In this document: piece by piece, positions 9,465 to 24,961 of the stretch
Layout of the letters: the number at the start of each line of letters is the position of its first letter
Position numbering within the stretch: position 1 is the stretch's first letter
Notes under the pieces: generated by a model
What the model saw: the letters and a program-made list of their open reading frames with translations, nothing else
Database searches by the model: none
Told to the model about the DNA's origin: nothing
Source: Promethearchaeota archaeon
Lineage (GTDB): Archaea > Asgardarchaeota > Lokiarchaeia > Sigynarchaeales > SOKP01
Direction: 5' to 3'
Length of the DNA: 28,036 bases
NCBI GenBank assembly: GCA_019058515.1
Contig: JAHPYY010000222.1
Span: forward strand, 1-28,036
Position numbers and translations under genes: made by a program

Positions 9465-11222
9465 ATGAAATTTAGTAAACTTGTTAATATTCTCGAAAAA
9501 GTAGAAAGCACGACTAAACGATTAGAAATGATAGATATCCTCTCAACTTTCTTCGAGAACATTAAAATTTCTAAAGATTTCGAAAATATTGAAAAAATTA
9601 TTTACCTTCTGCAGGGTCAGCTAGTATCAAACATCAAACAATTTCCTAAAATGGGCATCGCTGAAAAGATGATAATTGAGGCTTTAAGCGTTCATTCTGG
9701 AGTAAGTCCTGAAAAAATTAAACAAGTTTTAATAAAAAAAGGAGATATTGGCTCCACCGCAGAATTATTGCTATCGAAACGAAAAAAGCAGAAATCTCTA
9801 CTTGATTTTAAAACTAATGAAGAAACTGATCAAGAATCTCTAGAAATTCCTACGATTTACACCGAGTTGTTAAAGATTGCCAAAACTGAAGGTTCGGGCT
9901 CTCACGATATAAAACTGGGGATTTTAAGAGGGTTGTTAAGAAAATGTTATCCAGCTGAAGCAAAGTATTTATTAAAAATAATTACTGGAACGATGAGAAT
10001 TGGAGTTTCAACTCAAACCATAATAGATGGAATAGCTAGTGGTTTAACAGGAGATAAATCAAATAGAGATGTTATAGAAAGGGCATATAATCTTTACCCC
10101 GATTTAGGAGATGTAACTCGAATACTAGTTCAAAAGGGTATAAACGGGTTGAGGGAGATAAAAATATCCTACGGAATTCCATTAAGGATGATGTTAGCCT
10201 CTCGAGTCCCGTATGCAGAGATTCTCGAAAAAATGGGTGGAAAGTGTGCAGTAGAATATAAATTAGACGGGGAACGGCTTCAAATTCACAAATTTGATGG
10301 AAAGATCTTATTATTTTCTCGTCGACTCCTTGAAATCTCTGAGCAGTATCCAGATGTATGTGAAAATATTGCGAATAAAATTAAAGCAGATAATGTTGTT
10401 TTGGAGGGTGAAGTGGTTGCGATGGATAAATTTTACGAAAAGATGCTTCCGTTCCAGGTTTTGAGTAAACGGAGAAGGAAATACGATGTGGAAAATATCT
10501 TAAAAGAAGTACCAGTCAGTTTATTTTTGTTTGATCTCCTTAAAATTGACGATAGAGATTATGTCGACGAAAACTTACCTATACGTAGAAAGAAATTGGA
10601 GGAAATAACAACTCAAACTGACGAGATAAGGGTTGTAAAAACGTTAACCGTTTCTTCTACTGAAGAGCTTCTAGAGTTTTTTTATGTAGCTAGAAAAGAA
10701 GGCACTGAGGGTATAATGGCTAAATCTATTGCTGTTGATTCCACATATCAAGCTGGAAATAGAGGGTTTCATTGGATCAAATTGAAAGGGTTAGAAGGCG
10801 GGAAATTAAAGGATAGCATTGATGTAGTAATTGTGGGAGCTTTCTTCGGTCGAGGAAGGCGAAAAGGCGTATACGGGACTTACATCGGGGCGGTATATGA
10901 AGCAGAAAAGGATAGGTTTGTAGGTTTTACGCGAATTTCATCTGGGTGGACCGATGAAATAGTCGAGACGCTAATGGAAGAAGTAAAACCCTTTGAAGTC
11001 AAAAAAAAGCCGAAAGAAGTAATATGCGAAGATATTCCAGACCAATGGATACAACCAAATATAGTTATTGAAATTATTGGCGATGAAATCACAAAAAGTG
11101 AAAAATTTATAACTTTAGGTTATTCTTTGAGATTTCCTGTATTTCAAAGGTTTCGAGAAGATAAAAGTCCTCACGATGTGACGACTGACAAAGAAATAGA
11201 AGAATTATACAAAATTCAGTAA
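9465..11222 (+). CDS. lig: ATP-dependent DNA ligase (archaeal/eukaryal LigI type)
   Basis: 585 residues; seals nicks during replication and repair. The N-terminal ~230 residues are the helical DNA-binding domain (TIYTELLKIAKTEGSGSHDI; ITGTMRIGVSTQTIIDGIA). The adenylation domain starts with motif I, AVEYKLDGERLQIH, whose nucleophile is Lys266. Further motifs are LFSRRLLEIS (III), VVLEGEVVAMD, EGIMAKS (IV), FHWIKLKG (V) and the C-terminal OB-fold (VIVGAFFGRGRRKGVYGTYI; IRVVKTL region upstream). Length and domain order match archaeal Lig. The ATG at 9465 gives the expected N-terminus; there is no strong Shine-Dalgarno. Its 3' end overlaps the convergent LRR gene by 7 nt. Confidence 0.95.
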   Translation: MKFSKLVNILEKVESTTKRLEMIDILSTFFENIKISKDFENIEKIIYLLQGQLVSNIKQFPKMGIAEKMIIEALSVHSGVSPEKIKQVLIKKGDIGSTAELLLSKRKKQKSLLDFKTNEETDQESLEIPTIYTELLKIAKTEGSGSHDIKLGILRGLLRKCYPAEAKYLLKIITGTMRIGVSTQTIIDGIASGLTGDKSNRDVIERAYNLYPDLGDVTRILVQKGINGLREIKISYGIPLRMMLASRVPYAEILEKMGGKCAVEYKLDGERLQIHKFDGKILLFSRRLLEISEQYPDVCENIANKIKADNVVLEGEVVAMDKFYEKMLPFQVLSKRRRKYDVENILKEVPVSLFLFDLLKIDDRDYVDENLPIRRKKLEEITTQTDEIRVVKTLTVSSTEELLEFFYVARKEGTEGIMAKSIAVDSTYQAGNRGFHWIKLKGLEGGKLKDSIDVVIVGAFFGRGRRKGVYGTYIGAVYEAEKDRFVGFTRISSGWTDEIVETLMEEVKPFEVKKKPKEVICEDIPDQWIQPNIVIEIIGDEITKSEKFITLGYSLRFPVFQRFREDKSPHDVTTDKEIEELYKIQ

Positions 11223-12559
11223 TCAGAGTAAATACTGATCTTCCAAAGGCTGAGTTTCTTTAATATTGGTAAATCTCTATTAAACTTGTTATCAGATATG
11301 TAGAGATCCTTTAAATTTTTCAGATTAACAAGTGAATCTGGTAAATCTTGCAATTTATTTCGAGATATATTAAGCGACTTTAATCTTGAAAGCCCTCCAA
11401 TTGAAGGAGGAATTGCCTTTAGGTTATTTTCACTTAAATTCAAGTGTTTTAAATTGTTTAATTTTCCAATAGAGGTTGGAACTTGAGTTATTTTGTTCCT
11501 TTCAAGGTCAAGAATCTCTAAGGATCTAAGTGTACCTATATTTTCTGGCAAAAATTCAATTTCGTTCCAGCTTAAATTGAGGTTTTTAAGATTGTAGAGA
11601 TAGCAAATTGATGTTGGTAATTCTTTCAACTTGTTATCGTGTAAGTTCAAATTTATTAAATTTTCGAGTCTACCAATATTTTCTGGTAGTTTTTTTAGAG
11701 AATTTAAGCGTAAGTTAACGATCTCTAAAGATTTTAAATTGCATATTTCTTCTGGAATACGTTTGAGATTGTTTTTCCACAATAATAACTGTTTAAGTGA
11801 ATTTAAATTCCCAATTTCACTCGGGATCCATTCAATGTTATTAATATTAAGATTTAATAGCTCTAATTTATCGAATTCTCCGATCCATTCCGGAAGTTTT
11901 GTTAATTGATTATATCTAAGGATTAAACTTTCTAAGGAATCTAAATTTCGTATGGAAGCATCTAATATCGTTAACGATTTAAACAAGAAATCAAGTTTTG
12001 TAACTTTACAATCTCTAACATCGAATTTTATGCGCCAGAATTTTTTTTCCAGATAAATAAGGGTGAAGTAATTAATTAAAATTGATGATAAACGCTTAAC
12101 TGAAGAATTTATCTCGGGATTTTTTGAGGAAAAGTCTTGAAAAGCTATGTTTAATTGATGCCTTTTTAACGAAAAAATAATATCTTTTAAGTATTCACAA
12201 ATATTTGGCAAATCGAAAATACTTATATTTCTAAAGTAGTCAATCAAAGCATTGTAAGCTTCAGTAAATACCAGAGGATCTTCGTCGTGCTCTAAACTCC
12301 AACGCATTGGCTTATACGCTTTTTCCAAGTACTTTTCGCGAATAATTTTAGCCGATGTAGACCTTATTTGTCCGCTGGATTCTGATATAAGGAGATTTTC
12401 CAGAAAATGAAAAATTATTTCACTACGATCGTTTTCCAAACTCTTTAATTTACTCAATCCCTCAATTCTAAGATTTGTGTTATCGCTTGCTTCAATAAAT
12501 GCCTTTAAATCATCTATCGTTTCCTGCGTTTTCTTCTTATTTCGCAAGTCGAAGTCCAT
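11216..12559 (-). CDS. LRR protein with HEAT-like N-terminal domain
   Basis: 447 residues. Residues ~1-130 form a helical HEAT-like region (RSEIIFHFLENLLISESSGQ, then PMRWSLEHDEDPLVFTEAYN). After a spacer, about eleven 23-residue leucine-rich repeats follow with consensus L-x-x-L-x-x-L-x-L-x-x-N-x-L-x-x-I/L-P. This type is closest in look to eukaryotic Shoc2/RSU1-like and plant Ras-group LRRs and forms a curved protein-binding solenoid. No signal peptide, membrane helix or catalytic domain is seen, so it is probably a cytosolic scaffold. It ends at TGA (11216-11218), in frame just where the paralogues also end, so this UGA is most likely a true stop. Convergent with lig, 7-nt overlap. Confidence 0.8.
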   Translation of the reverse strand: MDFDLRNKKKTQETIDDLKAFIEASDNTNLRIEGLSKLKSLENDRSEIIFHFLENLLISESSGQIRSTSAKIIREKYLEKAYKPMRWSLEHDEDPLVFTEAYNALIDYFRNISIFDLPNICEYLKDIIFSLKRHQLNIAFQDFSSKNPEINSSVKRLSSILINYFTLIYLEKKFWRIKFDVRDCKVTKLDFLFKSLTILDASIRNLDSLESLILRYNQLTKLPEWIGEFDKLELLNLNINNIEWIPSEIGNLNSLKQLLLWKNNLKRIPEEICNLKSLEIVNLRLNSLKKLPENIGRLENLINLNLHDNKLKELPTSICYLYNLKNLNLSWNEIEFLPENIGTLRSLEILDLERNKITQVPTSIGKLNNLKHLNLSENNLKAIPPSIGGLSRLKSLNISRNKLQDLPDSLVNLKNLKDLYISDNKFNRDLPILKKLSLWKISIYSDY

Positions 12560-13775: not shown

Positions 13776-15275
13776 TTATTTGTAAAGAATCAACCCTTTC
13801 TTCTGCATGTTTTTTATAGAATTGGGAATGTATGCGATATCGTTAAAGTTAATGTCTAAAATTTTTAACATTTTTAAATCTTTTATCGATTCTGGTAAAG
13901 ATCTAAGCTTATTTCCCCATAAGCTTAAGATTTCTAGTGAGGTCAGTAAATTAATCCATTCTGGGAGATCTGAGAGCTTGTTCCAACTAAGATTAAGTTT
14001 CTGCAATTTGGATAGCTTTTGAAAAGACTCCGGCAAACTGGTCAACGAGTTATTCCATAGAGTCAATTCTTTTAACGATTCTAACTGACCTAATGAAGTC
14101 GGTAAATTATCTAGGTTGTTATCGTATAAGTGGAGTATCTCAAGATGCTTAAAACTTCCCATCCAATCGGATAATGATTGCAATTTGTTCCCTCCAAGGT
14201 CTAATATCTTCAGGTTTTCAAGTTCTTTTAGGTTATCGGGAATAGTAGTTAAATTATTTAATCCTACTTTTAATTCTTCTAGATTTTTTAACTTTAAAAT
14301 CTCCTCTGAAAGAGCATTCAAATTATTGCTGTGTAAATTTAAGATCTTTAGATTTTGGAGTAAACCTAGTGAATTTGGAATATCAATTAATTCGTTGTGT
14401 CCTAAATCTAATACTTCGAGATTTTTTGTTTGTCCTATTGTTTTAGGCAGAATTCTTAGTTTATTATACTTTAAATTTAGAGATTTTAATAGGGGTAGTT
14501 GGTACAGATTATCAGGTAACGATGAGATTTTGTTATAACTCAGATTTAGGTTTTGTAAGGAAACCATTTGGTTGATGTCGTCAGGTAGCGAACTTAATCT
14601 GTTAAATTTTAAGTTTAAAACTTTTACTGCTCCTAATGATTTTATAAAATCAGGTAATTTTCTTAGAATTTTCGACCCAAATACATGAGAGCTCACATCA
14701 GACAAGTCTAATTCCGTGATTAATCCATCTTCAATTTCAAAACTAATGTGGCCGAACTTCTGCTGTAAGAAATTGACAATATGGTAGTTATTTAAGATAT
14801 TGCTTAACTCTAAATTCGGTTGCTTTCTTAGCCTACCACTCACCATCAAATCTTTAACATTTTTTCTGTACTTTTCTTCTTTAATGTTTTTTATGTTTTC
14901 AATTAATACTTTATTCGAGTCAAATCCCTGTATCCCACCTAGTATGTTTGTTAAGGTTATGAGACACTTAAGAGATTTCTCGTGGGTTAAAGACCATCTT
15001 ATTAAGGGAAAGATTTTATCGCCCTCTGCTTGTTTCATAACATAAGCCGCGATGTCTCGCACATTTTCGTTTGAATCAGAGATAAGTAAGTTTTCCATGA
15101 ATTTGAATACCCGCGCATCTTTCAATCCTATTCTCCCTAGAAGCTCAATAGCGTTTAATCTCAAGTGTAAGTTTTCGCTTGTATCAATTAGCGCTATTAA
15201 GCGATCTATTGCGGTGTCTTTATCTAATTCTCCTCGTTTATACTTATCATAAATATAGTTAGGGTCGAATTCCAT
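13776..15275 (-). CDS. LRR protein with HEAT-like N-terminal domain
   Basis: 499 residues. Helical N-terminus (YIYDKYKRGELDKDTAIDRL; FKFMENLLISDSNENVRDIA; LIRWSLTHEKSLKCLITLTN), then about a dozen canonical 23-residue LRRs such as LKNLEELKVGLNNLTTIPDN and LKSLNLKYNKLRILPKTIGQ. It is highly similar in layout to the next gene (15321-16829), transcribed the same way 45 nt upstream, so the two are probably tandem duplicates in one operon. Starts at ATG with MEFDPN; no Shine-Dalgarno. Likely a cytosolic protein-interaction scaffold; partner unknown. Confidence 0.82.
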   Translation of the reverse strand: MEFDPNYIYDKYKRGELDKDTAIDRLIALIDTSENLHLRLNAIELLGRIGLKDARVFKFMENLLISDSNENVRDIAAYVMKQAEGDKIFPLIRWSLTHEKSLKCLITLTNILGGIQGFDSNKVLIENIKNIKEEKYRKNVKDLMVSGRLRKQPNLELSNILNNYHIVNFLQQKFGHISFEIEDGLITELDLSDVSSHVFGSKILRKLPDFIKSLGAVKVLNLKFNRLSSLPDDINQMVSLQNLNLSYNKISSLPDNLYQLPLLKSLNLKYNKLRILPKTIGQTKNLEVLDLGHNELIDIPNSLGLLQNLKILNLHSNNLNALSEEILKLKNLEELKVGLNNLTTIPDNLKELENLKILDLGGNKLQSLSDWMGSFKHLEILHLYDNNLDNLPTSLGQLESLKELTLWNNSLTSLPESFQKLSKLQKLNLSWNKLSDLPEWINLLTSLEILSLWGNKLRSLPESIKDLKMLKILDINFNDIAYIPNSIKNMQKKGLILYK

Positions 15276-15320: not shown

Positions 15321-16829
15321 TTATATTATAATTTTTACACCCTTAGCTCTCAGATTAACCAAAATCTCGCTGGAAAAGTCTAATTCGTTTGATTTAAGGT
15401 ATAATTTCTTCAGATTTTCTAAAGAGAGAACAGACTCAGGTAAAAATTTCAGTTTATTACCCCAGAGATTTAAGATTTCTAGGGATTTAAGTTCGGAGAT
15501 GTTATCGGGAACTTTATAAATTTTATTCCAACTCAAATTTAGATTATTAATGTTATTTAATTTTAAAATCGATTTGGGAATTGCACTGATGTTATTGTTT
15601 CTCAAATTTATACTTTCGAGTTTTACACATTGTGAAAACGATTCAGGTACAATTTCAATCATATTTTGATATAAAGTAATTGATTTGAGATTTGGTAATG
15701 AACTAATCCAAGACGGGATAGAATGAATTTTATTAATTTCAATACTTAAACCTTCGAGATTTTTCATAAATTTTATCTCATCGGGAAAATTTTCAAAAGA
15801 ATTATTACCAAGTTCAAGAATTTGTAAATTGCGTAAATTTCCAAATGATTTCGGTAAAGATCTTAATTTATTACTATTAAGATCTAATACTTTAAGACTT
15901 TTCATTAATCCTAACTCGTCAGGTAGCGATATAATCGAGTTATCTCTTAAGATTAATGTTGAGAGGAAGTTCAGACGCTTTATTTCTGAAGATAAGGTTT
16001 TTAACTTATTAGATTTTAGATTCAAGCTTGTTAGTTGACTTAAAGCTGCTAGATTACTCGGTAAGGATCTTATCTTATTGTAACTTAAATTTAAATTTTC
16101 TAAAGGGGATATCTGAGTATCTAAATTAATATTCAAAGAAATTAAATTGTTATTGCTTAAATCTAATTCTTTTAAAAAAGATAAAGTAAGAATTAGGTCA
16201 ATGTAGTTGTTGATTTTCTTTAAATTCAACCCCGCTCTATTTACTCCTGAAAGATCTAGCGAAATTATGGATCCGTCCCCTTTAGGTTCGAATTTGATGT
16301 AACCGAATTTTAATTTTAACGAGGAAATAATGTAATAGTTAATCAGAATTTCAGCTAACTCGCTAATAGCCAAATTTTCTAATTTTGAAACGGATTCTAT
16401 CCAGTTTAAGTTATATTTGTACTTCTGCTTTTTTTTTATGACCTTAATTCTGTTTAGTAGTATAGATTTTGATTTATCAGTTTGAATTTGACTAATGTTT
16501 AAGATAATCTTAACTAGGCAGTTAAGGGACTTTTCATGCTCAAACCCCCACTCCATTAAATCTAAGGCTCTATCTTGATATAGGTCAAGTAAAGCTTTAC
16601 CAGCACGTATTCTTATTCCTTCGTCTGAATCTGAGACGAATAGATTTTCTAAGAATGCATAAACCTTTTCCAACTTTAAGTTCAATTTTTCAAGGTAATC
16701 GATAGCAATAATTCTTGGATTTTGATATTCCGAATTTTCTATAAACCGTATTAGTAAATCTACTCCAGCGTTTTTATCTAAATTGTTAGAATTGATTTCA
16801 CTAAATATCACATCTGGAGTGAATGACAT
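15321..16829 (-). CDS. LRR protein with HEAT-like N-terminal domain
   Basis: 502 residues. The N-terminal helical domain (VYAFLENLFVSDSDEGIRIR; LMEWGFEHEKSLNCLVKIIL) is clearly paralogous to the 13776-15275 product. A linker (YGYIKFEP-type segment; compare FGHISFEIEDG in the neighbour) precedes eleven or twelve LRRs (LSFLKELDLSNNNLISLNIN; LKNLEGLSIEINKIH-type). First gene of the LRR pair; the leader upstream (16830-16900) has an AT-rich TATATATAAAG element on the plus strand. Function unknown. Confidence 0.82.
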   Translation of the reverse strand: MSFTPDVIFSEINSNNLDKNAGVDLLIRFIENSEYQNPRIIAIDYLEKLNLKLEKVYAFLENLFVSDSDEGIRIRAGKALLDLYQDRALDLMEWGFEHEKSLNCLVKIILNISQIQTDKSKSILLNRIKVIKKKQKYKYNLNWIESVSKLENLAISELAEILINYYIISSLKLKFGYIKFEPKGDGSIISLDLSGVNRAGLNLKKINNYIDLILTLSFLKELDLSNNNLISLNINLDTQISPLENLNLSYNKIRSLPSNLAALSQLTSLNLKSNKLKTLSSEIKRLNFLSTLILRDNSIISLPDELGLMKSLKVLDLNSNKLRSLPKSFGNLRNLQILELGNNSFENFPDEIKFMKNLEGLSIEINKIHSIPSWISSLPNLKSITLYQNMIEIVPESFSQCVKLESINLRNNNISAIPKSILKLNNINNLNLSWNKIYKVPDNISELKSLEILNLWGNKLKFLPESVLSLENLKKLYLKSNELDFSSEILVNLRAKGVKIII

Positions 16830-18209: not shown

Positions 18210-19767
18210 TTATACTCTTTCTATAAGCATACCTCCTAAGACTATAGGTCCACCTGTAGAATTGAATATTTTTTCAGCTCTCTTTAACTTTGTTTGGCTT
18301 TCCGAATAAACCGTCAAGATCTTTTCTCCTTCTTCAACTTTTGCTCCTTGTTTTTTATATATTTCGATTCCTGAGCTTTTAGAATACGGGCAACCGGCAG
18401 TCTTTGCCATTTCATTGATAATTGCGTTATTAACCTCTGTTATATGACCTGATTTACTTGCGAAAAAATCTTTATGGTAAGGACCAAGCTTAATATCCTC
18501 TGGTTTAATTGATGGATCACCCCCTTGAATCTCGATAATGCGTTTCATCTTCTCGTAAGCTTTTCCTGATTTTAATATATTCTTTGCTAGGTCTTGTCCT
18601 TTCCCTAACTCAGTTTTTCCAGTCATTTCTAACAATATTCCCGCTAATGAGGTAGATTTTTCAATTAGAGAATTAGGTCCTTTGGAGTAATCCATTAACA
18701 ATTCAAGCGCTTCCTTAGCTTCTATTGCAGGACCAATAGTGTGACCAACGGGTTGATGGGCTAAAGTCAATCCGCACTCTGCAATAATGTTTACTTGCTT
18801 CGCAATCTCTTTAAATGTATAAGCAAATGTCTTAGCTTGATCTATTGTCTGAAATTTCGTTCCTTGTCCTACTGGAATGTCTAAAACGATTTGTTTTACC
18901 CCCATGCATAATTTCTTAGCTAATATAGAAGGTATCATCAAACCCCATGGGTCCATATGTAAGGGTCTTTCGATTTCTATCAATAAATTATCTGCTGGAG
19001 CAATTTCAAGAGCTCCACCCCATACAATACATCCATTTTCTTTAAGAATTAATTCTTTTAACTCTTCGGAACTAAAGGTTACTGGGGCTAAAACTTCCAT
19101 CGAATCCGCTGTTCCCGAAGGTGAGGTGATCGCCCTAGTACTTGTTTTTGGAATTATTAATCCTGCAGCTGCTACTATAGGAACGATTATTAATGATACT
19201 TTATTGCCAGGGACTCCGCCTTTTAGCTAGATTTACGAATTTGTAGATCTATGTGCTATGTTTATCAAAAACTTTTGGTCCAAAATCGAATGCTTCTCCT
19301 GAATATGCTTCTGCTAGAGTTAAAGCAATCATCTCTTCGTTATCACATCCGTTGATGTCCACGCTTGTGATAAATGAAGCAATTTCTATTTCTGAAAGGA
19401 GCCCTGATGTGGCATCACTTATAATATCGTTAATTTCTGGGGCAAGTAGCTTTTCTCCTTTTATTTTCTTTTTTATATACTTAAATGATTTAGGTGGATC
19501 GATCGATTTTACCGAAACCATTGTAGATTGAATTAAGTGTTTCAAATTATTAAAGATTCCTAACTCTCCTGGAGCTACTATAGCGTCAGATGTGGCAATC
19601 TGTAAAATCGCTACGATATATTTGTTATTAACCGACTCTGTTTCGCTGTCTTTGATGATCAAGCGTTCCCCAACTTTAGAGCCTAGTTCCTGTGCGTCTT
19701 TAGAGTTTAAAATAACGTATTTGGTGTTTCCAGATTCAAAATTTATGTTTTTAACTTTTAATCTCAT
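18210..19767 (-). CDS. deoA: AMP phosphorylase (archaeal DeoA type), split by a 31-nt probable BHB intron
   Basis: Joined exons 19767-19253 and 19221-18210 give 508 residues, the usual length for archaeal AMP phosphorylase (nucleoside-phosphorylase class II fold). The enzyme converts AMP and phosphate to adenine and ribose 1,5-bisphosphate, which can feed a type III RuBisCO pathway. The N-terminal ~85 residues are the extra domain typical of the archaeal enzymes. LTLAEAYSGEAFDFGPKVFD leads into DKHST at the exon 1 end; exon 2 resumes with GGVPGNKVSLIIVPI and PKTSTRAITSPSGTADSMEV, all family hallmarks. HQPVGHTIGPAIEAKEAL and the C-terminal PYSKSSGIEIYKKQGAKVEE domain are intact. As unspliced DNA the gene has an in-frame TAG (19251-19249) and a frameshift. 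See the intron feature. A frameshifted pseudogene is the alternative. Confidence 0.88.
19222..19252 (-). other. Probable 31-nt bulge-helix-bulge intron in the AMP phosphorylase gene
   Basis: The exon 1 end UAGC (19258-19255) pairs with GCUA (19227-19224) to give the 4-bp central helix. It is flanked by two 3-nt bulges on opposite strands: ACA (19254-19252) and AAA (19223-19221). The inner helix is UAGAU-C-UAC (19251-19243) with GUA-A-AUCUA (19236-19228), one C/A mismatch and a 6-nt loop. Cutting after the second base of each bulge, the canonical archaeal rule, removes 31 nt and joins AC+A to make a Thr codon, giving DKHS-T-GGVPGN in frame. The outer exon helix is weak (A/G mismatch, then one C-G pair), so the motif would be a relaxed HBh' type. 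The pattern is read directly; splicing is inferred. Confidence 0.75.
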
Positions 19768-22987: not shown

Positions 22988-24961
22988 TTAATACTCCTCA
23001 AGAATCGCATCAATTTGCTCTTCGTACTGAGGTTCTCTGTAGTACCTGAGAGTAATTGCTTCGGAAGGACAATTTGCTAAGCAGGAACCGCACCCTCTAC
23101 ACAAAATCTCATTGACTTCAGCACCGTCATCTTCTAGAGTAATAGCTCTGTATGGACAGTTTAATTCGCACAAGCCACAATTTGCGCATTTTTCCTTGGA
23201 AACATTTGCTCGAATTAATTTTATCCTGAAAGTTCCCTTACCCATCAATCGGGCTAACGATGATGCTGCAGCCCGGCCTTGCGAAATAGACTCCGCAATT
23301 GATTTTGGACCCTGAGCGACTCCTGCGAGAACGATACCCGGTATTTTTGTGTCGATTGGATTCAGTCTTGAGTGGAACTCTTTGAAAAATCCATCTTGAC
23401 TGGTTTCAAGTTTTAGTATCTTCGTAAGGTGTTCAATTCCAACGGGGGGAACCATCGCAGCAGATAAAACAACCATATCGTATTCGAATTCTCTTAATTC
23501 TAATGAATCTCTCAGCGTATTTTGCATGATGATTTTTAAATTATGTGTTACCGGGTCTTCTTGGATTCGACTAACATTCGTTCGAACATACTTTATACCT
23601 TCTTTTCTTGACGCCGTAAAATACTCTTCATAATCTTTACCAGCAGCTCTTATGTCCATGTATGCTACTGTAATATCGGTATCCGGATGATGCTGTTTGA
23701 TTAATTTAGTATTTTTTATTGAAATCATGCAACATACCCCCGCACTACAGTATGTTTGCTTGTTCAAATCTCTGGAACCGACGCACTGAATAAATAGAAT
23801 CTTTTTAGGGCGTTTTCCATCCGAAGGACGCACTATATGTCCGACCGTAGGACCGTTTGGTGCTAGCATTCTTTCAAGTTTCATCTGTGTTATTACATTT
23901 GGGTACACATTGTAGCCTAAATAGCCCTCGTCTGGTTCATACTCGTCCCAACCCGTTGCAACCACGATAGAGCCCACTTCAAATTCGATGATTTCATCCT
24001 TTTGATCAAAATCTATAGCTTTCAATTCACACACATTCTTGCAAAGTCCACACTTAATGCATCGATTCATGTCGATTTGAGCCATAGAGGGTACTGCTTG
24101 TGTAAAAGCTACATAAATCGCCTTTCTTGGGTTCATGCCCTCATTGAACTCGTCATATCCATATGCAGGACAAACCTCATAGCAAGCACCACAACCGTTA
24201 CAATCGTTTGTTACATATCGCGCTTTTTTCCTTACTTTCACCGAAAAATTACCCACAAATCCAGAAACACTCTCCACTTCGCTATATGTATAAATGTTTA
24301 TTCCAGGTATTCGAGCCGATTCTAACATTACAGGACCAAGAATTCATATACTACAATCGTCGGTTGGAAATGTACGGTCAAGCATCGCCATTTTTCCACC
24401 AATCGTTGGACTTTTTTCAATGAGAAACACTTCAAAACCTTGTTCTGCTAAGTCTATAGCACTACTCAACCCTGCAACTCCCCCTCCGATTACTAGAGTC
24501 TTCTGGGTGACATCCACTTCTTTTATTTCAATTTTTTCTAAAACCGCAGCCCTTGCTACTGCTGATTTGATCGCGTCTTCGGCAACTCGCTGAGCCCCTT
24601 CCCTGTCTTGCCTGTGTACAAAACTTGAATGCTCACGGATATTTACAAATTCTAAAAATGAAGGATCCAAATTCATATCCTGTAATACACTTTGAAATAC
24701 TGGTTCGTGTGTCTTAGGAGTACATGCTGCAACAATAACCCTATTTGCGTTCGATTCAACTACTTTTTCCTTGATAAATTCTGCCCCGGGTTCCGCGCAT
24801 AAGCTAATGTACTTCTCAGCATTTACTACATTTGGCAAATTTTTAGAAAATTCGGCTAATTTGTTGGTATCAATAATTTCAGCGATATTTATCCCTCAAT
24901 CACAGACGGCAACAAATATCCTAATATCTTCGTTATCATTAGTATCGCTGTCTTCTACCAT
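22988..24961 (-). CDS. hdrA: Heterodisulfide reductase subunit A, selenoprotein with two Sec
   Basis: 657 residues with UGA at codons 22 and 206; the whole 1,974 nt is otherwise open in one frame. HdrA is the FAD flavoprotein at the centre of flavin-based electron bifurcation in cytosolic Hdr complexes. The N-terminus IRIFVAVCD-U-GINIAEIID matches the family's CxCG..NIA segment. The Rossmann FAD motif TLVIGGGVAGLSSAIDLAEQ lies at ~154-173. TFPTDDCSI-U206-ILGPVM matches the conserved Cys of the DCSxC motif, a Sec site in methanogen HdrA. Fe-S motifs: CNGCGACYEVCP (from ~254), CIKCGLCKNVCE (~301), and two C-terminal ferredoxin sets, CANCGLCELNCP and CRGCGSCLANCP. ATG at 24961 follows AAAGGAT. 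Read without recoding it would appear as two broken genes (24344-24838 and 22988-24328). In an operon with mvhD. Confidence 0.93.
24344..24346 (-). other. In-frame UGA (Sec) codon 206 of hdrA
   Basis: TGA in DDCSI-U-ILGPVM, at an invariant HdrA cysteine that is Sec in some methanogens. Confidence 0.9.
24896..24898 (-). other. In-frame UGA (Sec) codon 22 of hdrA
   Basis: TGA in VAVCD-U-GINIAE, two residues after Cys20, at the second Cys of the N-terminal CxC motif. Confidence 0.85.

Follow-up and report, generated by a model that had tools for sequence, protein, structure and literature searches.

The closest described counterpart of the system treated here is the cbf5 gene of Crenarchaeota, which contains introns of 16–44 bp with a bulge-helix-bulge (BHB) or relaxed BHB motif, the splicing of which was shown in some species (PMC2738675, Yokobori 2009, citing Watanabe 2002). 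In the accessible part of that paper, the relaxed motif is linked to a hetero-oligomeric splicing endonuclease, lineage-specific losses of the intron are described, and annotators are said to have confused the intron with frameshifting; introns in other archaeal protein-coding genes are given there as predicted and unconfirmed (PMC2738675). No report of BHB introns in protein-coding genes of Asgard archaea was found in the literature searched, outside of which lie preprints and most subscription papers. The present analysis concerns a DNA stretch of 28,036 nucleotides (nt) from a Promethearchaeota archaeon of the class Lokiarchaeia (assembly GCA_019058515.1, contig JAHPYY010000222.1), hereafter called the window, to which all coordinates refer. 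Its AMP phosphorylase (AMPpase) gene, located on the minus strand, is interrupted by 31 nt that, judging from the sequence, very probably represent an archaeal BHB-type pre-mRNA intron, which would be excised by the tRNA-splicing endonuclease (EndA) and the exons of which would be joined by the ligase RtcB.

The AMP phosphorylase gene was present as two open reading frames (ORFs; 19767-19249 and 19226-18210), both of which matched the AMP phosphorylase profile TIGR03327, one after the other and without overlap (Table 1). Read without splicing, the frame of exon 1 runs through DKHST into a TAG codon (19251-19249). Exon 2 lies in a different frame, with a TAG upstream of it (19229-19227) and without an ATG, GTG or TTG codon before 19100, the first possible start coinciding with residue 41 of exon 2. 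Removal of the insert restores the motif DKHS-T-GGVPGNK, the junction being ambiguous by one A, and the sequence across the joined junction reads DKHSTGGVPGNK. A preliminary description of this DNA had placed a 31-nt insert at exactly these positions, with an in-frame TAG and a change of frame inside a conserved motif, which the sequence confirms. Searches with exon 2 retrieved 4564 homologous proteins (E ≤ 0.001). Among the 120 best homologues listed, KHS[TI]GG was unbroken in 82, and 35 were ORFs of about 339 amino acids (aa) that start right at the junction (e.g., with ML[KNI]GGVPGNK), some of them deposited as 'thymidine phosphorylase' or 'hypothetical protein'. The latter ORFs are probably misannotated halves of intron-bearing genes; half-proteins of this kind would be deposited if gene callers took no account of introns.

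A survey of the AMPpase locus was made with one genome per species, and the best 80 of 524 loci were considered, 53 of which belonged to Lokiarchaeota by title (genomes and loci are referred to below by G and L numbers). An insert of 29–31 nt occurred at the identical site in 12 of these 53 loci; the other 41 lacked exactly the insert and read through KHS[TI]GG, as the preliminary description had anticipated for intron-less relatives. The remaining 27 of the 80 loci, from other archaea, read through the site as well (by eye). The central helix was fully paired in all 13 introns (that of the window and the 12 others), and C-G takes the place of U-A in L017 and L021. Across the 13 introns and 13 pairs, 98.2% of the cells were paired, 17 cells contained double changes, and the covariation score was 0.445, none of which was reached by any of 500 shuffles; six pairs showed changes on both sides (reached by 2/500 shuffles). 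Structures that were slid out of register paired in just 28–50% of the cells, and the RNAalifold consensus of the 13 introns, obtained without guidance, was the identical structure. As lengths of 29, 30 and 31 nt occurred at one and the same site, the insert does not maintain the reading frame.

In the window, the unconstrained minimum-energy fold included the UAGC/GCUA helix, the 5' bulge and the hairpin, with the AAA bulge following the helix. Dinucleotide shuffling of the insert, repeated 200,000 times, never produced 4/4 central pairs together with 8/9 or more stem pairs at the register, a slide of 1 nt being allowed; chance does not account for the BHB geometry of the splice register. The helix, the ACA and AAA bulges and the hairpin are as the preliminary description had drawn them, and the cuts that it proposed, behind the second base of either bulge, yield the conserved motif, these cut positions being predicted ones. 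Its assignment of a BHB-type intron to the AMP phosphorylase gene is thereby strongly supported by empty sites, covariation and geometry, all of which are sequence-based.

Table 1. Positions in the window of the exons of the AMP phosphorylase gene, of the putative intron and of the elements of its fold
Feature	Position	Strand	Remarks
Exon 1 of AMP phosphorylase	19253..19767	-	171 codons + 2 nt, ending in ...DKHS-AC; ORF and TIGR03327 positions 1-165
Putative BHB-type intron, 31 nt	19222..19252	-	In-frame TAG; length not a multiple of three; homologous inserts, empty sites and covariation
Exon 2 of AMP phosphorylase	18210..19221	-	Starts with A-GGVPGNK...; 336 aa + stop; TIGR03327 positions 167-500, E 1.3e-136
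Central helix, 5' strand UAGC (exon 1)	19255..19258	-	Paired 4/4 in 13/13 AMPpase introns
5' bulge ACA	19252..19254	-	Cut inferred after the second base
Intron hairpin	19228..19251	-	9-pair stem (8/9 paired in the window), 6-nt loop
Central helix, 3' strand GCUA (intron)	19224..19227	-	Fold and covariation
3' bulge AAA	19221..19223	-	Cut inferred after the second base; AAA in 25/34 tabulated introns

Selection on the two exons was assessed in three close pairs of intron-bearing genes, in which differences were counted at codon positions 1/2/3. These amounted to 10/3/27 in exon 1 and 10/4/52 in exon 2 for L009/L031, to 3/0/9 and 4/1/20 for L017/L021, and to 20/7/59 and 37/14/123 for L026/L039. 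A fourth pair (L031/L045) displayed the third-position bias in exon 1 (23/8/49), its exon 2 being spoiled by an apparent frameshift of L045 that is separate from the intron and possibly an assembly error. The third-position bias in both exons indicates that both halves are under selection at the protein level.

Inserts of this type were not restricted to the AMPpase gene. A covariance model built from the 13 AMPpase introns, with which 83 genomes of one class were searched, retrieved the AMPpase intron in 12 of them, as well as a second strong match in G001, in a gene coding for an ABC-transporter ATPase (PF00005). Applied to the whole phylum (227 genomes), the model matched those 12 genomes and, weakly, G155 (E 8e-4) at E ≤ 0.001. 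Further, a scan of G001 for structure plus ORFs, covering 1.96 Mb of its 4.1 Mb (1.89 Mb once overlaps are removed), revealed inserts in genes for a thiolase-domain protein (IGN/MDHFEG, the slash marking the insertion site), an AAA ATPase (QRL/NDSRFG) and a Ras-family GTPase (TIGV/DFHVKTI). The family names of the new genes were checked on intact relatives or on the pieces. In a stricter ranking of 248 candidates of G001, the top four were the inserts of the thiolase (16.0), AAA ATPase (15.4), GTPase (14.3) and ABC ATPase (14.1) genes, followed by a candidate with a score of 13.8. The score gave slight credit to an AAA 3' bulge and to an A in the 5' bulge, a choice made once these introns were known, so that the ranking checks consistency and is not blind; the energy filter of an earlier G001 scan had missed the ABC intron. 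Several candidates were rejected. A low-threshold scan of G001 gave 1118 candidates, and the 70 listed were mostly antisense ORFs and gene borders. Formiminotransferase-like matches (L144/L145, named by eye; model R2, E 8e-4 and 0.06) were in frame without a stop codon and were attributed to chance, and the other weak matches of the covariance model, read by eye, restored no protein.

The occupancy of the new sites was patchy too. For the ABC ATPase gene, matched in 50 genomes, 30 loci were read, six of which contained the insert at DEPT/TGVD and 24 were intact; its central helix varied from UACC/GGUA to AACU/AGUU. The thiolase-domain gene (30 loci in 30 genomes) contained a 30-nt intron in six loci and was intact in 23, one (L303) being cut by a contig end; all cells of its six introns were paired (100%; 2/500 shuffles as high). 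The GTPase gene, matched in 55 genomes, was intact in 27 of the 30 loci read, the insert occurring in L347, L362 and L368. The AAA ATPase gene of G005 contained three inserts, at GEPG/TGK (site 1), at the site found in G001 (site 2) and at AD/IEFPND (site 3), the last of which was also occupied in G078 and G050, with a helix changing from GCCG/CGGA to GCAG/CUGU. This gene was matched in 62 genomes, and among 33 loci checked, 31, 31 and 30 were intact at sites 1, 2 and 3, respectively, with L324 cut before site 1 by a contig end; we presume the protein to be MoxR-like, its nearest NCBIfam family being MadB, below the cut-off. Lastly, the gene coding for RtcB (PF01139) contained a 29-nt BHB insert in G008 and G064 at GGVG/YDINCGVR, with a TTGG/CCAA helix and nine stem pairs each. 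Both RtcB inserts (L386 and L395, respectively) were near-identical amid differing flanking codons, hinting at constraint on the intron or at recent transfer.

Altogether, 36 introns were found at eight sites in six genes, in at least 22 of the 83 genomes of the class, plus the window, a number that is a lower bound, as only six genes were looked at closely. The opinion of the preliminary description that mRNA introns of this type are rare does not hold for Lokiarchaeia, where they recur in at least six genes. The anatomy of the 34 tabulated introns was nearly uniform, with lengths of 30 nt (19 introns), 31 nt (8), 29 nt (3), 32 nt (2), 33 nt (1) and 34 nt (1), a central helix paired 4/4 in 30, an ACA 5' bulge in 19 and an AAA 3' bulge in 25. 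An in-frame stop codon occurred in all 34, and the length was not divisible by three in 14. The introns lie in phase 2 (AMPpase and ABC ATPase), phase 1 (GTPase, RtcB, and sites 1 and 2 of the AAA ATPase) and phase 0 (thiolase and site 3 of the AAA ATPase). The junctions given by two opposed 3-nt bulges, with cut positions as predicted, agree with the empty sites of relatives and give the exact product.

The enzymes necessary for removal of such introns were sought in related genomes. The endonuclease catalytic domain PF01974 was found in 12/12 genomes (eight with and four without the AMPpase intron), with at least two matches in 10 of them. The alpha-type endonuclease of G001 is nearest to PDB 3p1z (E 2.3e-37), which we take to be EndA of Aeropyrum pernix, and retains Tyr, His and Lys residues that presumably form the catalytic triad. 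Its K-P-R sequence aligns with K44-P45-R46 of the crenarchaeal loop, and all 11 alpha sequences read keep K-P-R (K-P-K in G005). According to the available part of PMC12397907, this loop is tied to activity and broad specificity, an account of the splicing endonuclease that the weak exon-side helix found here fits. The catalytic His was absent from all five beta-type sequences read, and the beta-type endonuclease of G005 has 5x89 and 1a79 as its closest matches. The related genomes encode a crenarchaeal-like splicing endonuclease, with a catalytic alpha subunit carrying the loop Lys and a non-catalytic beta subunit that are predicted to assemble into a heteromeric enzyme; the preliminary description had asked for the subunit type, and the type found suits the intron. 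RtcB was present in 11 of the 12 AMPpase-intron genomes and matched in 75 of the 83 genomes of the class, most listed matches spanning the whole model; the window's own genome presumably contains both enzymes. Two full-length RtcB matches each were noticed in G001 and G078.

Other explanations of the split gene were weighed against splicing by EndA and RtcB. Translational bypassing or programmed frameshifting, whereby the ribosome hops over the hairpin, as reportedly happens on T4 gene 60, would account for a hairpin at the break and for a product that is continuous at the protein level. Bypassing, however, needs matching take-off and landing codons and a single reading phase, whereas the inserts vary between 29, 30 and 31 nt at a single site and occupy all three codon phases over the eight sites, the covarying pairs include the central helix between exon and intron, and the codons flanking the gap differ at the AMPpase, thiolase, AAA ATPase and GTPase junctions (by eye only). 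Bypassing is therefore very improbable; given the varied lengths, the three phases and the ubiquitous in-frame stop codons, the frame is best restored at the RNA level. Gene fission or decay, leaving a broken gene or two half-proteins, could be read from the listed homologues that start right at the junction, and an insert in one contig could be an assembly artefact. Yet the break falls inside the KHS-T-GGVPGNK motif, the second ORF of the window lacks a start codon close to its beginning, as mentioned above, and the third-position bias is kept in both exons. In addition, the insert recurs with compensatory changes on 12 other contigs whose accession prefixes belong to several studies, which makes fission, decay or artefact highly unlikely too. 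Removal of a genuine intron by something other than EndA and RtcB, such as a self-splicing ribozyme or another nuclease-ligase pair, is compatible with the fact that no assay of an Asgard enzyme was found in the literature looked at. Against this, group I and group II ribozymes far exceed 29–34 nt, going by the sizes we assume for them, and no Rfam match, and so no group I or group II catalytic core, was found in the window. Also, according to the accessible part of PMC6379350, the substrate of EndA consists of a 4-bp helix flanked by 3-nt bulges on opposite strands, relaxed BHB forms being accepted in the family. Such an alternative removal route seems extremely improbable.

Some results speak against the proposed splicing and have to be set beside the above. 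The fold energy in the window is ordinary (z -0.92; 37/200 shuffles fold as well). Its exon-side outer helix is minimal, with about one pair, so that the strict hBHBh' form is absent; given this weak outer helix, a relaxed substrate is indicated, as the preliminary description had proposed. One mismatch (3/4 paired) occurs in the central helix of 4/34 tabulated introns. Free folding of nine other junctions, which gave the exact BHB form in four (L163, L317, L379 and L386), gave a close register variant in two (L180 and L287) and a different pairing in three (L168, L377 at AAA site 3, and L187). Covariation in the thiolase introns is modest by pair counts, with two double-change pairs (reached by 61/500 shuffles), and the GTPase inserts of L362 and L368 have irregular stems. 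Concerning the enzymes, only a beta-type endonuclease was obtained for G007 and only an alpha-type for G003, and the intron-bearing G034 gave no RtcB match; these gaps may result from incomplete assemblies.

In the splicing pathway proposed for the AMPpase transcript, UAGC of the exon would pair with GCUA of the intron, with three nucleotides bulging out on either strand. Both bulges would be cut internally by a heteromeric endonuclease resembling the crenarchaeal (alpha-beta)2 enzyme, RtcB would ligate the exons, and the ribosome would read the joined message into one AMP phosphorylase of about 508 aa. Cleavage, ligation and translation of the joined message are what we infer from the features described. 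The intron would then be a member of a class of BHB introns of 29–34 nt that is dispersed among Lokiarchaeia protein-coding genes, with gains and/or precise losses that occurred more than once. In a phylogeny of 58 exon-2 proteins of AMPpase, at least eight changes in the presence or absence of the intron are required, and well-supported branches force five of them. With shuffled labels, the average rises to 12 changes (0/500 as low), and sisters differ in intron state (e.g., L038 with and L043 without the intron). The sequence similarity among introns of a given site is most simply explained by an ancient intron that was lost precisely and repeatedly; insertion may instead have recurred at a favoured site. 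The intron sites are located in motifs that we take to be catalytic or nucleotide-binding, namely Walker A, after Walker B, switch I and the metal site of RtcB, a placement that recalls that of inteins. The intron in the RtcB gene suggests self-regulation of splicing. A wider scenario, which we consider possible rather than probable, is that Lokiarchaeia carry dispersed and perhaps mobile mini-introns of about 30 nt in catalytic motifs, gained and precisely lost via RNA intermediates, and that the RtcB intron can couple ligase production to splicing capacity, which would amount to a modest regime of mRNA splicing in archaea that are close to the eukaryotic stem. Introns in at least six Asgard genes, with three in one gene, would change the view of archaeal mRNAs as effectively unspliced. 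Such mini-introns would also explain half-genes in Asgard databases, and they offer a testable system for the entry, spread and exit of tRNA-type introns in protein-coding genes. They should be provided for when genes are called in Asgard genomes.

Elsewhere in the window, an HdrA-like gene (22988-24961, minus strand) contained in-frame TGA codons at 24896-24898 (VCD*GINI) and 24344-24346 (DCSI*ILGP), both at positions that are presumably Cys in relatives. These breaks were considered as introns and rejected; as the in-frame TGA codons lacked a convincing BHB fold, selenocysteine is likelier, and the gene probably encodes a selenoprotein with two selenocysteine residues. Three proteins resembling leucine-rich-repeat paralogues (by eye) lie close together on the minus strand (11216-12559, 13776-15275 and 15321-16829). 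Implausible tRNAs predicted by ARAGORN with introns allowed were not used.

Among the known systems, BHB introns themselves are not new; the new part is their patchily distributed occurrence in Asgard protein-coding genes. Group II introns have been described in Asgard genomes (PMC9887622) and rRNA introns are treated in PMC6125680, as far as the accessible parts of both papers go. Abundant tRNA introns are known from the Asgard Atabeyarchaeia and Freyarchaeia; in the available text of that paper, protein-coding introns are not reported and the term 'protein-coding' is absent (PMC11291895). Archaeal tRNA introns are, like the present ones, of the type processed by the splicing endonuclease, but reside in tRNA and not in mRNA. 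In the accessible part of PMC7714728, one mRNA with a BHB motif is cited, to which the 5' untranslated region of HVO_1309 is added as a substrate of Haloferax EndA; this too is an mRNA processed by the splicing endonuclease, although it concerns an untranslated region without a coding intron. The putative 12-bp introns of an archaeal virus (Peng et al., as cited in PMC2738675) are likewise short, lie in protein-coding genes and have not been demonstrated to be spliced, the likeness being one of description, but they are viral and of 12 bp. The cbf5 introns come closest, as far as the part of PMC2738675 that was accessible goes, since they share with those of Lokiarchaeia a short intron of BHB or relaxed form in a coding gene, a hetero-oligomeric endonuclease and a patchy distribution. 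They concern one gene of Crenarchaeota with splicing shown, whereas in Lokiarchaeia at least six other genes are involved, with splicing deduced from sequence; cbf5 of Lokiarchaeia lies outside the six genes compared. Compared with cbf5, the Lokiarchaeia introns further stand out by their near-uniform length of 29–34 nt, by the three introns in one gene of G005 and by the intron in the gene for RtcB.
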